Source: Gammaproteobacteria bacterium (GTDB taxonomy: Bacteria; Pseudomonadota; Gammaproteobacteria; Ga0077554; Ga007554). Taken from it: a stretch of DNA of 44,553 nt. The stretch spans positions 1 to 44,553 of the forward strand of contig JAGVME010000028.1 of the NCBI GenBank assembly GCA_020053945.1. Reading direction: 5' to 3'. Under the pieces are notes generated by a model. The model was given only the letters and a program-made list of their open reading frames with translations, was not told the DNA's origin and ran no database searches. Every line of letters begins with the position of its first letter. Position 1 is the stretch's first letter. Below are positions 26,856 through 33,850 of the stretch, in pieces. A program made the position numbers and the translations under genes.

Positions 26856-26872
26856 TGTCGGAAAATTTTACA
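26856..26872 (+). promoter_or_regulatory. Upstream regulatory motif copy 1: TGTCGGAAAATTTTACA
   Basis: 16/17 identical to 27000-27016; upstream of a sigma-54-like promoter. Confidence 0.6.
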
Positions 26873-26999
26873 CAAGCAGACACGATGTTTGTGTAATATT
26901 CAACCTGTTTATTTCTTTACCTGTACACCGATGTCCTGTAAAATACTGATTATTAAATGAATGGCATGTTAGCCCTGAGATGGAATTCCAAGTGCAGAA

Positions 27000-27016
27000 T
27001 GTCGGTAAATTTTACA
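27000..27016 (+). promoter_or_regulatory. Upstream regulatory motif copy 2: TGTCGGTAAATTTTACA
   Basis: 16/17 identical to 26856-26872. Confidence 0.6.
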
Positions 27017-27070
27017 ATCAGATTTAAGGGATTGTAGGAATATCAAATCTATTCAATAGATTGGCTAAGT

Positions 27071-27086
27071 TGGCCTATTTTTTGCA
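27071..27086 (+). promoter_or_regulatory. Sigma-54 (-24/-12)-type promoter: tGGcctattttttGCa
   Basis: GG at 27072-27073 and GC at 27084-27085 with exactly 10 nt between; 47 bp before ATG of the PEP-CTERM gene. Confidence 0.65.
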
Positions 27087-27132
27087 TATATATTGTGCAG
27101 AATTTTAATGTTTTAACTGAGGCTTTTTAAGT

Positions 27133-27954
27133 ATGAAATCAACTTTTCCCTTGGTTTTAGGCGCCTTGTTTGGGTGGGTCGCCAATGCCTATGCTGTTCC
27201 GACCTTGCAGGTCGGTGCGCCCGCAGGCGCAGGTGATTCAGGAGTGTATGCGGACTATGATTCTTCTTCGTCATCCCCTACCGAAACCAATACGGCCATT
27301 ACACTTGGTAATCAGCTCTTGGTTGGAGGCGCTTATGCCAATTCCAATAATGAGTTGTTGCTTGGTGGCCAGTATATTGGATCGCAGGGGACTGGCTTGG
27401 ATTGGGCAACGGTGTTGAGCGCCGAATTTGGCGGGTCTTCGAGTGATTATAGTGTGTTTAATGGCAAAGGCGCCATATTGGTGGCTTCCATTCCGGGTGA
27501 TAGCACGGGAGGCTTGACCATCAATGGCATGATGCCGTTCTTTACGTCACCTACGTCGCTTTTCCCTAATAAACATGATCCGGTAAAGTCCGATACTTCA
27601 GATTTTCTCTTTTTTGACATTGGAAATTTTGCCAAAAACACTCCCGCCATACCGAATTTTGTAGATGAGTTACCGGGTTCTGCAGGTTCTATGGGAGAGA
27701 TCAAGAATCTGTTAATTGCTACTAGTGGTTTTCAGTGGATTCACTTCGATGTAATGGCGCTAGCGACATACGATAAGAAAGATAGCAAAACAGGCTTGCT
27801 TGACACAGGTTTGGTATTTAACCCTGGTTCTAAAGACGTAACCTGGAAAGATCCAGGCCCCTCGCCATTTGGTGTGCCTGAACCTGCTACCCCCCTCTTG
27901 CTGGGTCTGGGTTTGATGGGTCTGTTGATGGTGCGCCGCCGCCGTATTTCATAA
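27133..27954 (+). CDS. PEP-CTERM sorting-domain secreted protein (possibly choice-of-anchor family)
   Basis: Signal peptide MKSTFPLVLGALFGWVANAYA; C-terminus VPEPATPLLLGLGLMGLLMVRRRRIS = PEP motif, TM helix, Arg cluster. Confidence 0.9.
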   Translation: MKSTFPLVLGALFGWVANAYAVPTLQVGAPAGAGDSGVYADYDSSSSSPTETNTAITLGNQLLVGGAYANSNNELLLGGQYIGSQGTGLDWATVLSAEFGGSSSDYSVFNGKGAILVASIPGDSTGGLTINGMMPFFTSPTSLFPNKHDPVKSDTSDFLFFDIGNFAKNTPAIPNFVDELPGSAGSMGEIKNLLIATSGFQWIHFDVMALATYDKKDSKTGLLDTGLVFNPGSKDVTWKDPGPSPFGVPEPATPLLLGLGLMGLLMVRRRRIS

Positions 27955-30051: not shown

Positions 30052-30215
30052 ATCTTGACCGGACCAGAAGATTTCATAAATTACCTGCGGCCACGCGGGT
30101 CTTTTGATAGCCATAGCAACATTGTTCGGTCGGCTGTATGAATAACTACGGGGTTCTCCTTGCAAAAATCCTCCCCCGCTCAATCAAAGGGCCTGCGGGA
30201 TTTTTGTGTGAATTT

Positions 30216-30473
30216 ATGAGATCGTCGGGTGAAAAAACTGTGGTTTTGGCGATACGCATTTATCGTGGTTTAATCAGCCCGTTTTTGGGTAATAACTGCC
30301 GGTTTTATCCCAGTTGCTCATGTTATGCCGAAACAGCCATAAAAAATCATGGTGTCATCACCGGTAGCTGGATGGCCGCACGCCGACTCGCGCGTTGCCA
30401 TCCCTGGCATCCCGGTGGCATTGACCTCGTACCTGATTCTCTACCTGTAAAGAAAGTGGATAAAACTTCCTGA
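30216..30473 (+). CDS. yidD: Membrane protein insertion efficiency factor YidD
   Basis: AIRIYRGLISPFLGNNCRFYPSCSCYAETAIKNHG...RLARCHPWHPGGIDLVP. Confidence 0.94.
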   Translation: MRSSGEKTVVLAIRIYRGLISPFLGNNCRFYPSCSCYAETAIKNHGVITGSWMAARRLARCHPWHPGGIDLVPDSLPVKKVDKTS

Positions 30474-32161
30474 TGGATAATTATAGAATTCTTATTTTTG
30501 CGGCATTGTCCGTAGTGATCATTTTCCTCTGGCAAGCCTGGCAACAGGAGCAGGTGGCGCCGCCCACGGCGGCGACGGCTCCCGCTTCCGCACAGGCGCA
30601 AAGCGGGATAGCGCAAACACCCGCGGAGCCTGCTGCTACCAGTGGTTCGCCCGCAACCCCTGCGGCGGCAGGCGGCGCATCTACTGCCGTGCCCAGCGTC
30701 GCGCCGGTGGCTGGGAAACCAGGGTTGGCTGTAGGCCAGCGGGTTCATATAAAAACTGACGTGCTGGATGTCATTATTGACACCCATGGCGGTGATATGC
30801 GCCAAGCCGATCTTAGCGCGTATCCCGTCAAGGTAACCGAGCCGGAAAAACCGGTGCGCTTGCTGGATGAGGCGCCCTCCACATTGTTTATCGCGCAGTC
30901 GGGTCTGCTCGCCAATCGCCCCGCCCCCGATCACCATGCGCAATTTTCGGTGGAAAAAACCGAATATACCCTGAATACCGCCGATGAAATCAAGGTGCCG
31001 CTGTTGTGGACCAGTCCTGAGGGTGTGACGGTCACCAAGACCTACACTTTCCGTCGGGGGAGCTATGTGGTCGAGGTGGACCATACGGTAAACAACGCTT
31101 CCGCCACCGAATGGAAGGGCCGTCAATACCGCCAGTTGCAACGCCGTGATTCGTCCGATGGCGGCCTGTCACTGATTTACACCTACACGGGCGGCGTGAT
31201 TTACAGCGAAGCCAAAAAATACGAAAAAATCACATTTGATGACATGAAAGAAGAAAATCTCAGCCGCGATTTTGATGGCGGCTGGGCGGCCATGATTCAG
31301 CATTATTTTGTCAGCGCCTGGATACCCAAGGCCGACGAAAATAATCATTATTACAGCAAGGCGCTGGATGACAAGCATTACGTGCTGGGGATGGCCTCGC
31401 CGGAAGTCGCTATCGCTCCCGGCCAGAGCAATACGTTCACCAGCCGCCTGTATGTGGGCCCCAAGCTGCAGGATATGCTGGAAAAAATCGCGCCGGGTTT
31501 AGAGTTGACCGTTGATTATGGCCCGTTGACGATTATCGCAAAGCCGCTGTTCTGGTTGCTGGAATGGTTTCACAAAGCAGTGAATAATTGGGGTTGGGCG
31601 ATTGTGCTGCTGACGCTGACGATCAAGCTGGTGTTTTTCAAGCTGTCTGAAACCAGCTACCGTTCCATGGCGAACATGCGTCGCTTGCAACCGAAAATGG
31701 TAGCGCTGAAAGAACGCTATGGCGATGACCGCCAGAAATTCAGCCAGGCAATGATGGAGTTGTACAAGAAGGAAAAAGTTAATCCGGTGGGTGGCTGCTT
31801 ACCCGTACTGGTGCAGATTCCGGTGTTCATTGCTTTATACTGGGTGTTGCTGGAAAGCGTGGAGTTGCGCCAAGCGCCGTTCATCCTGTGGTTGCAAGAT
31901 CTTTCAACCCGCGACCCCTATTACGTGCTGCCGCTGATTATGGGTATCACCATGGTGATACAGCAACGCTTGAATCCGCCGCCGCCCGATCCGGTAATGG
32001 CGAAAGTAGTGAAGTATATGCCGTATATCTTCACGCCGTTTTTCGCCTTCTTCCCGTCGGGTTTGGTGTTGTATTGGGTAGTGAATAATACCCTGTCAAT
32101 TGCGCAACAGTGGTTTATTACCCACCGCATTGACAAGCTGGCAGCCAAGCAAACGAGTTAA
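30473..32161 (+). CDS. yidC: Membrane protein insertase YidC
   Basis: MDNYRILIFAALSVVIIFLWQAWQQ...NWGWAIVLLTLTIKLVFFKLSETSYRSMANMRRLQPKM...VGGCLPVLVQIPVFIALYWVL. Confidence 0.97.
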   Translation: MDNYRILIFAALSVVIIFLWQAWQQEQVAPPTAATAPASAQAQSGIAQTPAEPAATSGSPATPAAAGGASTAVPSVAPVAGKPGLAVGQRVHIKTDVLDVIIDTHGGDMRQADLSAYPVKVTEPEKPVRLLDEAPSTLFIAQSGLLANRPAPDHHAQFSVEKTEYTLNTADEIKVPLLWTSPEGVTVTKTYTFRRGSYVVEVDHTVNNASATEWKGRQYRQLQRRDSSDGGLSLIYTYTGGVIYSEAKKYEKITFDDMKEENLSRDFDGGWAAMIQHYFVSAWIPKADENNHYYSKALDDKHYVLGMASPEVAIAPGQSNTFTSRLYVGPKLQDMLEKIAPGLELTVDYGPLTIIAKPLFWLLEWFHKAVNNWGWAIVLLTLTIKLVFFKLSETSYRSMANMRRLQPKMVALKERYGDDRQKFSQAMMELYKKEKVNPVGGCLPVLVQIPVFIALYWVLLESVELRQAPFILWLQDLSTRDPYYVLPLIMGITMVIQQRLNPPPPDPVMAKVVKYMPYIFTPFFAFFPSGLVLYWVVNNTLSIAQQWFITHRIDKLAAKQTS

Positions 32162-32166
32162 AATAG

Positions 32167-32193
32167 CGGGCCGCAAGGCCCGTTTCTCTTTTT
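32167..32193 (+). terminator. Rho-independent terminator after yidC
   Basis: CGGGCC-GCAA-GGCCCG then TTTCTCTTTTT. Confidence 0.8.
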
Positions 32194-32213
32194 GTACCCT
32201 GGATTCAACATAG

Positions 32214-32329
32214 AAGTGCGATTCTCCCGTAAGCTGACCCGGCCGAATGAACGGTGCTGAAGGGTGGCACCGGGTCGGGGCTGTGCCGTAACGCGGGCCG
32301 CTCCCGCACTTGCTGGTCCAAGAGAATCG
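32214..32329. ncRNA. Candidate structured RNA/leader between yidC and gltX
   Basis: Closing stem CGATTCTC (32219-32226)/GAGAATCG (32322-32329); inner CGGTGC...GCACCG and GACCC...GGGTC; competing AAGTGCG (32214-32220)/CGCACTT (32305-32311). Confidence 0.4.
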
Positions 32330-32440
32330 GTCAGTTATGCTGACTGCCCCAAGGCCGATTTTCTGCCTATCCATTTTTCGTTACAATGGTGCTTATCCTG
32401 CGGCATCATGCCCATCTTATTTTCAGCCAAGGAATTGTTC

Positions 32441-33850
32441 ATGACCGTTCGTACCCGCTTTGCTCCCAGCCCCACCGGTTATCTCCATATTGGGGGCGCC
32501 CGTACGGCTTTGTTTTCCTGGTTGTATGCGCGCAGGCATGGCGGTACGTTTATTCTGCGCATTGAAGATACCGATCTCGAGCGTTCTACCCTGGAGTCGG
32601 TAAATGCGATCCTAGAGGGCATGACGTGGCTGGGGCTGGAATATGATGAAGGCCCTTTTTCGCAGAGTGACCGCTTGGGACGTTACCGCGAGGTGGCCCA
32701 GCAATTATTGAGTGCGGGTAAAGCCTATCGTTGCTATTGTTCCAAAGAGCGTCTGGAGACGTTACGCAACGCGCAGATGGCGAATAAGGAAAAGCCGCGT
32801 TATGACGGCCATTGCCGGAATTTACCCCAAAGTAATCATGGCGCTGCTGATGCGCCGCATGTGATTCGTTTCAAAAACCCCATCGAAGGCGCGGTGGTGG
32901 TCGAGGATCAGGTACGTGGCCGGGTGGTGTTTGCCAACAGCGAGCTGGACGATCTGGTTATTGTGCGTACCGATGGTATGCCCACTTATAATTTTGCCGT
33001 GGTGGTGGACGATAGTGATATGCGGGTGACGCATGTGGTGCGTGGTGATGACCATTTGAATAATACGCCGCGCCAGATCAATATTTTGCAGGCATTGGGC
33101 GCGACGCCGCCGGTGTATGCGCATGTGCCGATGATCTTGGGTGAAGATGGCGCGCGCCTGTCGAAGCGTCATGGCGCCGTGAGCGTGATGCAATATCGGG
33201 AAGAGGGATATTTACCGGAGGCGCTGCTGAATTACCTGGTGCGGTTGGGCTGGTCGCACGGTGACAAGGAAATATTTTCGCTGGATGAAATGATTGCGTT
33301 GTTTGATAGCAGTGACGTGAATAATTCGGCATCGACTTTTAATCCCGGTAAATTGATATGGCTGAACCAGCATTACATCAAAACCAGTGATGCGGCGCAT
33401 GTCGCGCATCATTTGAGCTGGCATATGGGGCGTCTGGGGGTAGATCCATCGACGGGCCCCGCATTGGTGGAGGTGGTGCAGGCGCAGCGCGAACGTGCCA
33501 AGACGCTGGTGGAGATGGCGCAGAACAGCGTGATTTTTTATCGTGAATTTGAGGCGTATGATGAAAAAGCGGCGGCGAAACATTTGAAGCAGGACATTGC
33601 GCCGGCCTTGACGGATTTGCGCGGGCGTTTTGCGGCGTTACCGGAGTGGAGCAGTGAAGCGATTCACCAGGCGGTGATGGATGTTGCGCAGGCGCGTGAC
33701 ATGAAGATGGGTAAGCTGGCGCAGCCATTGCGTGTGGCATTGTGTGGCACGGACGTGTCTCCGCCGATTGATGTGACGGTGCGTTTGATTGGCCGCGAGC
33801 GTACTTTGCGGCGCATGGATCGGGCGCTGAAATATATTTTTGGGGGTTGA
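32441..33850 (+). CDS. gltX: Glutamyl-tRNA synthetase
   Basis: [31 protein letters not shown]...[13 protein letters not shown]; start at internal ATG 32441. Confidence 0.96.

Follow-up and report, generated by a model that had tools for sequence, protein, structure and literature searches.

A putative PrsK/PrsR-type sigma-54 promoter with a phased enhancer box and candidate IHF sites upstream of a PEP-CTERM gene

An open reading frame for a 273-amino-acid protein with an exosortase-type tail lies behind two copies of a 17-nucleotide sequence and a GG-N10-GC motif in the window (the whole stretch of 44,553 nucleotides analysed herein). The locus raises the question of what these elements are, and whether their spacing follows a rule. 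Sigma-54 promoters of the NifA, NtrC, and XylR type possess an upstream activator site, a loop that is often bent by IHF, and a -24/-12 promoter. A previous study on PEP-CTERM genes (Haft et al. 2006, PMC1569441) described a 17-nucleotide motif 1 ending in TTTACA, sometimes repeated, which is followed by a sigma-54 motif 2; the spacer between motif 1 and the -24/-12 site was 62.8 +/- 10.6 nucleotides (range 32-92). The same study described PrsR and PrsK, inferred that PrsR is the binder of motif 1, and found that the motif precedes some of the PEP-CTERM genes as well as genes of other kinds (99/167). Judging from its sequence, the present locus is very probably (we put it at about 0.86) a sigma-54-dependent promoter of the PrsK/PrsR type that serves a PEP-CTERM gene whose product is sorted by an exosortase, with a phased box and an IHF-bent loop. 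The parts of the locus are as follows.

26856..26872, + strand: distal PEP-CTERM box, a putative PrsR site (TGTCGGAAAATTTTACA), matching motif 1 of Haft et al. 2006 and kept in the orthologous promoters of two relatives, G002 and G004
26939..26951, - strand: candidate IHF site between the two boxes, a perfect match to the consensus (AATCAGTATTTTA = WATCARNNNNTTR), kept in G002 and G004
27000..27016, + strand: proximal PEP-CTERM box, a putative PrsR site (TGTCGGTAAATTTTACA), 54 nucleotides before the TGG of the -24 element
27051..27063, + strand: IHF-like site, one letter off the consensus (ATTCAATAGATTG); its position relative to the TGG, -20, falls in a range (-18 to -20, plus strand) that recurs in other species
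27071..27086, + strand: putative sigma-54 -24/-12 promoter (TGGCCTATTTTTTGCA, GG-N10-GC), whose distance from the box agrees with the phased series
27133..27954, + strand: gene for a choice-of-anchor N PEP-CTERM protein of 273 amino acids, from the translation of the reading frame, profile matches, and orthologues
27133..27195, + strand: predicted signal peptide (MKSTFPLVLGALFGWVANAYA), recognized by eye in the translation
27874..27945, + strand: PEP-CTERM sorting signal (VPEPATPLLLGLGLMGLLMVRRRR), TIGR02595, 30.3 bits

The protein bears the marks of an exosortase substrate, namely a signal peptide (by eye), a PEP motif, a hydrophobic helix, and a basic C-terminus. In profile searches its C-terminal tail matched both PF07589 (E 6e-6) and TIGR02595 above their curated cut-offs, and its body matched NF038141, "choice-of-anchor N" (E 2.4e-26). 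The signal peptide and exosortase-type tail that a preliminary description of this DNA assigned to the gene are thus borne out, the former by eye only. Orthologues occur in G002 (73% identity), G001 (67%), and G004 (60%). Elsewhere in the window, yidD and yidC (30138-33850) are directly followed by a gltX-like gene, as read by eye from the translations; mnmE is the usual gene after yidC.

The two boxes lie 144 bp apart, as the preliminary description had reported, and the pair is beyond chance, since the 17-mer with up to three mismatches occurs twice in the window against 0.23 expected. That description was also right in where it placed the 17-mers, the GG-N10-GC motif, the gene, and an element between the boxes (CTGTAAAATAC at 26936-26946). 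Its sigma-54 reading stands insofar as the motif is present at 27071-27086 and the genome encodes RpoN (508.7 bits in a profile search), but the match alone is at chance level, with 38 sites of equal quality in the window versus 39 expected. The site is imperfect (TGGCCT where the consensus has TGGCAC), and it is significant only because of its position behind the box. The gap of 54 nucleotides from the proximal box to the TGG is the same in the G002 orthologue. When the promoter is aligned with its G002 and G004 orthologues, both boxes and the middle element prove to be conserved; upstream of the G001 orthologue (L097, G001:C25) no recognizable box was found, though G001 has PrsR and eight boxes elsewhere. 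The middle element had been described as a partial inverted copy of the 17-mer near 26936. Only its TTTACA half fits an inverted third box, and an IHF-consensus site (26939-26951) is the better explanation; the element is located at -61 from the second box in the window, at -60 in G002, and at -59 in G004.

The box is not confined to this promoter. The pattern TGTCGG-N5-TTTACA occurs 10 times in this 2.14-Mb genome, versus 0 times for the reversed pattern. PEP-CTERM genes follow boxes on three contigs, C67 (the window), C26, and C114; the other positions are a PilZ-domain gene (C56), an SpvB-domain reading frame (C104), and a pair of boxes near a contig end (C151). Eleven genes exceed the TIGR02595 cut-off in this genome, and within the DNA examined only three of them carry a box. 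The 17-mer therefore marks a subset of the PEP-CTERM genes together with genes of other kinds. The suggestion that it marks further PEP-CTERM genes proved correct for those on C26 and C114 and in relatives, with GG-N10-GC behind, and did not extend to the set as a whole. The place of the window gene in a PrsR regulon is a prediction from cis-sequence only. The box pairs of C104 (L025:2204-3104, in the host genome, G000) and C151 (L026:136-347) are similar, with boxes 180 and 195 bp apart, and one of the two precedes a seemingly interrupted reading frame with an SpvB-domain start; the short C104 and the contig-end C151 pair suggest a repeated locus.

All seven other genomes of the host family contain 7-19 boxes apiece (control 0), and genomes outside the family contain 0-3. 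Over the stretches examined, a weight matrix at 12 bits or more found 134 boxes, versus 1 in reversed sequence. Promoters of the family mostly have two or three boxes, with GG-N10-GC behind nearly every box group. This multiplicity is mostly a host-family trait, as a second box within 450 bp was present in only 12 of 82 promoters of a wider set (described below) among the matches listed. Some family targets lack a PEP-CTERM tail: PilZ, alpha-amylase, SNase, GSDH-CHRD, DUF3135, and Ig-like/P-domain proteins. The PilZ-domain gene (L024:7681-8272; counterparts L111, L105, L114, L132, L148, and L128) is kept in at least seven family genomes, where a single box precedes a sigma-54 site 96-109 nucleotides behind it; a link of PrsR to cyclic-di-GMP signalling is possible. 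In three genomes (L104, L123, and L140), boxes precede a Gln/Asn-rich repeat protein of 473-497 amino acids that ends in ISQVAQNxGHNSLVQQNFTIQGNVSP; the member scanned had no Pfam match, and by eye its repeats bear some resemblance to curlin.

To extend the comparison beyond the family, GTDB genomes were scanned for a box, 41-101 nucleotides, and TGGY-N8-TGC. The pattern occurred in at least 119 stretches, and 80 loci, mostly from alpha-, beta-, and gammaproteobacteria, were taken from among the matches listed. Perfect IHF-consensus sites are far more frequent near the boxes of both collections than in dinucleotide shuffles of the same DNA: 11 of the 41 intervals that separate two boxes (1.0 expected), 14 of the family's 53 spacers between the last box and the promoter (1.1 expected), and 21 of the 90 spacers in the wider set (0.9 expected; among the matches listed). 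Among those matches, fewer than a quarter of the wider-set spacers contain a perfect consensus, and about half contain a site within one mismatch. The sites occupy fixed positions relative to the TGG, at -31 to -33 on the minus strand and at -18 to -20 and -35 on the plus strand. At -31 to -33, 25 of 90 box promoters (among the matches listed) have a site with no more than one mismatch, versus 0 of 13 sigma-54-like sites that have no box. The window has the one-mismatch site at 27051-27063 between the putative activator site and the promoter, and the perfect one at 26939-26951 between the boxes.

Conceivably, these sites are mere A+T-rich curved DNA of the sort usual upstream of promoters, to which no IHF is bound; the upstream DNA is indeed A+T-rich, and chance alone would put a relaxed IHF consensus in about 12 of the 90 spacers. 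We regard this explanation as unlikely, though it is the strongest of those that compete with ours. The perfect consensus is enriched 10- to 20-fold over dinucleotide shuffles and falls within position windows of 2-3 bp. Moreover, the middle element of G004 has diverged to different letters and yet fits the IHF consensus. Binding of IHF at these sites is the reading that we favor.

The identity of the activator is a separate matter. Neither PrsR (TIGR02915) and PrsK (TIGR02916) nor an exosortase (TIGR02602, PF09721) was found above cut-off in this 85.6%-complete bin. The preliminary description would have counted the absence of PrsR or an exosortase from the genome against its proposal, and in a formal sense that is what this bin presents. 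Missing contigs are the likelier cause, though all of these genes would have to have been missed, because both congeners and four more complete confamilials (G001-G006) have both proteins, with PrsR at 545-734 bits and strong PF09721 exosortase matches. Another confamilial that is PrsR-negative like the host bin (G007) is 78% complete and yielded a fragmentary exosortase match only. Among relatives at least 90% complete (n = 24), boxes occur in 9 of 10 that are PrsR-positive versus 2 of 14 that are PrsR-negative (Fisher p ~4e-4, calculated by hand).

Alternatively, PrsR may have been lost in this lineage and the boxes taken over by another NtrC-like activator, for which a full-length NtrC-family protein is available on C106, C135, or C143. 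Their matches to the PrsR profile score 280-357 bits against a cut-off of 502.6, and two of the three share contigs with PEP-CTERM genes (C106 and C143). However, NtrC-family matches of 280-400 bits are present in most relatives, boxes or not, and both congeners and the four more complete family members combine PrsR with the same boxes. Such a replacement appears improbable, and PrsR is retained as the putative activator.

The distance between box and promoter is quantised. In 81 promoters among the matches listed, the gap from the end of the box to the TGG clusters at 43, 52, 63, 74, and 84 nucleotides, and none has a gap of 44-48 or 54-60. The best period is 10.7 bp (R 0.74), a value reached in 0 of 5000 smoothed nulls. 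The pattern was replicated in a separate, evenly drawn sample of 399 genomes, of which 22 contained a total of 36 sites (reversed control 0). After removal of the four sites of this genome, the remaining 32 gaps had a period of 10.75 bp (R 0.67; 0 of 20000 nulls), and their mean phase was about 0.9 bp from that of the first set, with which they had no identical promoter in common. For non-redundant promoters with spacers less than 65% identical (n = 90, among the matches listed), the period is about 10.7 bp and R is 0.69; the nulls and E-values treat promoters as independent, and this filter lessens shared ancestry and does not remove it. Within the host family, medians per downstream gene family still gave R 0.50 over 36 families. 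The orientation of the box is likewise fixed, the inverted-box pattern having 1 match in the 399 genomes versus 36 forward. The gap in the window (54 nucleotides) deviates by about 1.5 bp from the helical phase shared across the wider series. That the quantised gaps merely reflect shared ancestry or a repeated element, and not contact on one face of the helix, is very hard to credit, for although some family promoters are clearly related (e.g., the 78-79-nucleotide lineage below), the period holds in 90 promoters among the matches listed that come from alpha-, beta-, and gammaproteobacteria, have spacers less than 65% identical, and fall into several gap classes, and inheritance by itself gives no 10.7-bp steps.

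Not every lineage keeps to this phase. One promoter lineage (L118, L121, L137, L144, and L149, in G003, G005, and G006) has its last box 78-79 nucleotides from the -24 element, about half a turn off; its boxes are 169-191 bp apart, and the genes behind them encode secreted proteins that lack a PEP-CTERM tail (GSDH-CHRD, Ig-like/P-domain). In sphingomonads (L169, L280, and L302), the 43-nucleotide gap class precedes a conserved membrane protein of 76-85 amino acids (...EAxLIIYALALGAxxRGxxYLxxYP...), two members of which were scanned and had no Pfam match. Spacings between one box and the next also seemed periodic (near 101, 111, 122, 133, and 144 bp). Once grouped by downstream gene family, the 19 values gave R 0.44-0.48 at 10.5-10.7 bp and a best period of 11.7; because the signal is weak after this grouping, phasing between boxes is not claimed. 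A count of decoy spacings, with N7 or N9 replacing N8, was biased by the choice of loci and is unused as evidence.

It seems likely, at somewhat lower confidence than the reading of the locus itself, that a common geometry applies across the Proteobacteria, in which a one-way PrsR box stands at whole helical turns from the promoter (43, 52, 63, 74, 84 ... bp) with an IHF bend fixed between them, and in which activation needs helical alignment and not mere proximity. Phosphorylated PrsR, an NtrC-like AAA+ activator, would bind the 17-nucleotide boxes in one fixed orientation, and the nearest box would be on the side of the helix from which the PrsR oligomer can contact sigma-54 polymerase at 27071-27086. 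IHF would bend the DNA both between box and promoter (at the weak site 27051-27063) and between the boxes (at 26939-26951), so that the distal box would also reach the complex. ATP hydrolysis by PrsR would then open the promoter. Over evolution, the box would shift by whole helical turns only, half-turn insertions and deletions being removed by selection. After its export, the C-terminal helix would hold the protein, which an XrtA-type exosortase would process into the extracellular matrix. Of this account, the sequence itself shows the boxes with their orientation and phase, the IHF consensus, the regulon, and the sorting tail, whereas the binding of PrsR and IHF, sigma-54 transcription, and exosortase processing are inferred.

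Part of this picture is not new. The 17-mer, put forward in the preliminary description as a candidate PrsR-type site, is the motif 1 that Haft et al. described in 2006 with PrsR as its proposed binder, and is thus a rediscovery. The likeness extends to the 3' TTTACA, the repetition, a spacer within the published range (54 nucleotides here), and a position mostly before single-gene PEP-CTERM operons. The difference is that Haft et al. gave only the mean, SD, and range of the spacer, in a text without helical steps, a fixed orientation, or IHF sites. The pepA promoter of Aquincola tertiaricarbonis RN12 (PMC9850573) likewise belongs to a PEP-CTERM gene and has a -24/-12 site and a predicted upstream enhancer; there, RpoN was tested experimentally, transcription was RpoN1-dependent, and a start was mapped behind TGGCAC/CTGCTT, while PrsR binding, phasing, and IHF are not addressed in the accessible portion of that report. 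Promoters of the NifA, NtrC, and XylR type (reviewed in PMC7057263) share the upstream activator site, an IHF-type site, and the -24/-12 promoter; the present ones differ in that the putative activator is PrsR and that the box is close (43-110 bp), mostly at whole-turn steps, and in many species. In the literature searched, which covered few subscription journals, phasing or IHF was not found for PEP-CTERM-box promoters; general sigma-54 reviews were found, with nothing on PrsR. The element has been known since 2006, and the helical steps and IHF sites are, as far as we could find, apparently undescribed.

The window locus adds a further PEP-CTERM gene to those with a regulatory element that was predicted in 2006 and has hardly been tested since. 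With the spacing taken into account, that prediction becomes a geometric rule: the promoter should go silent when 5 bp are inserted, recover when the insertion is 10-11 bp, and be weaker when IHF is missing. The combination of an oriented box, a phased gap, and an IHF site would provide a cleaner signature for mapping the regulon, including targets that have no sorting tail, such as the conserved PilZ protein. These promoters also provide a large, naturally occurring sample in which a sigma-54 enhancer is helically phased with its promoter.
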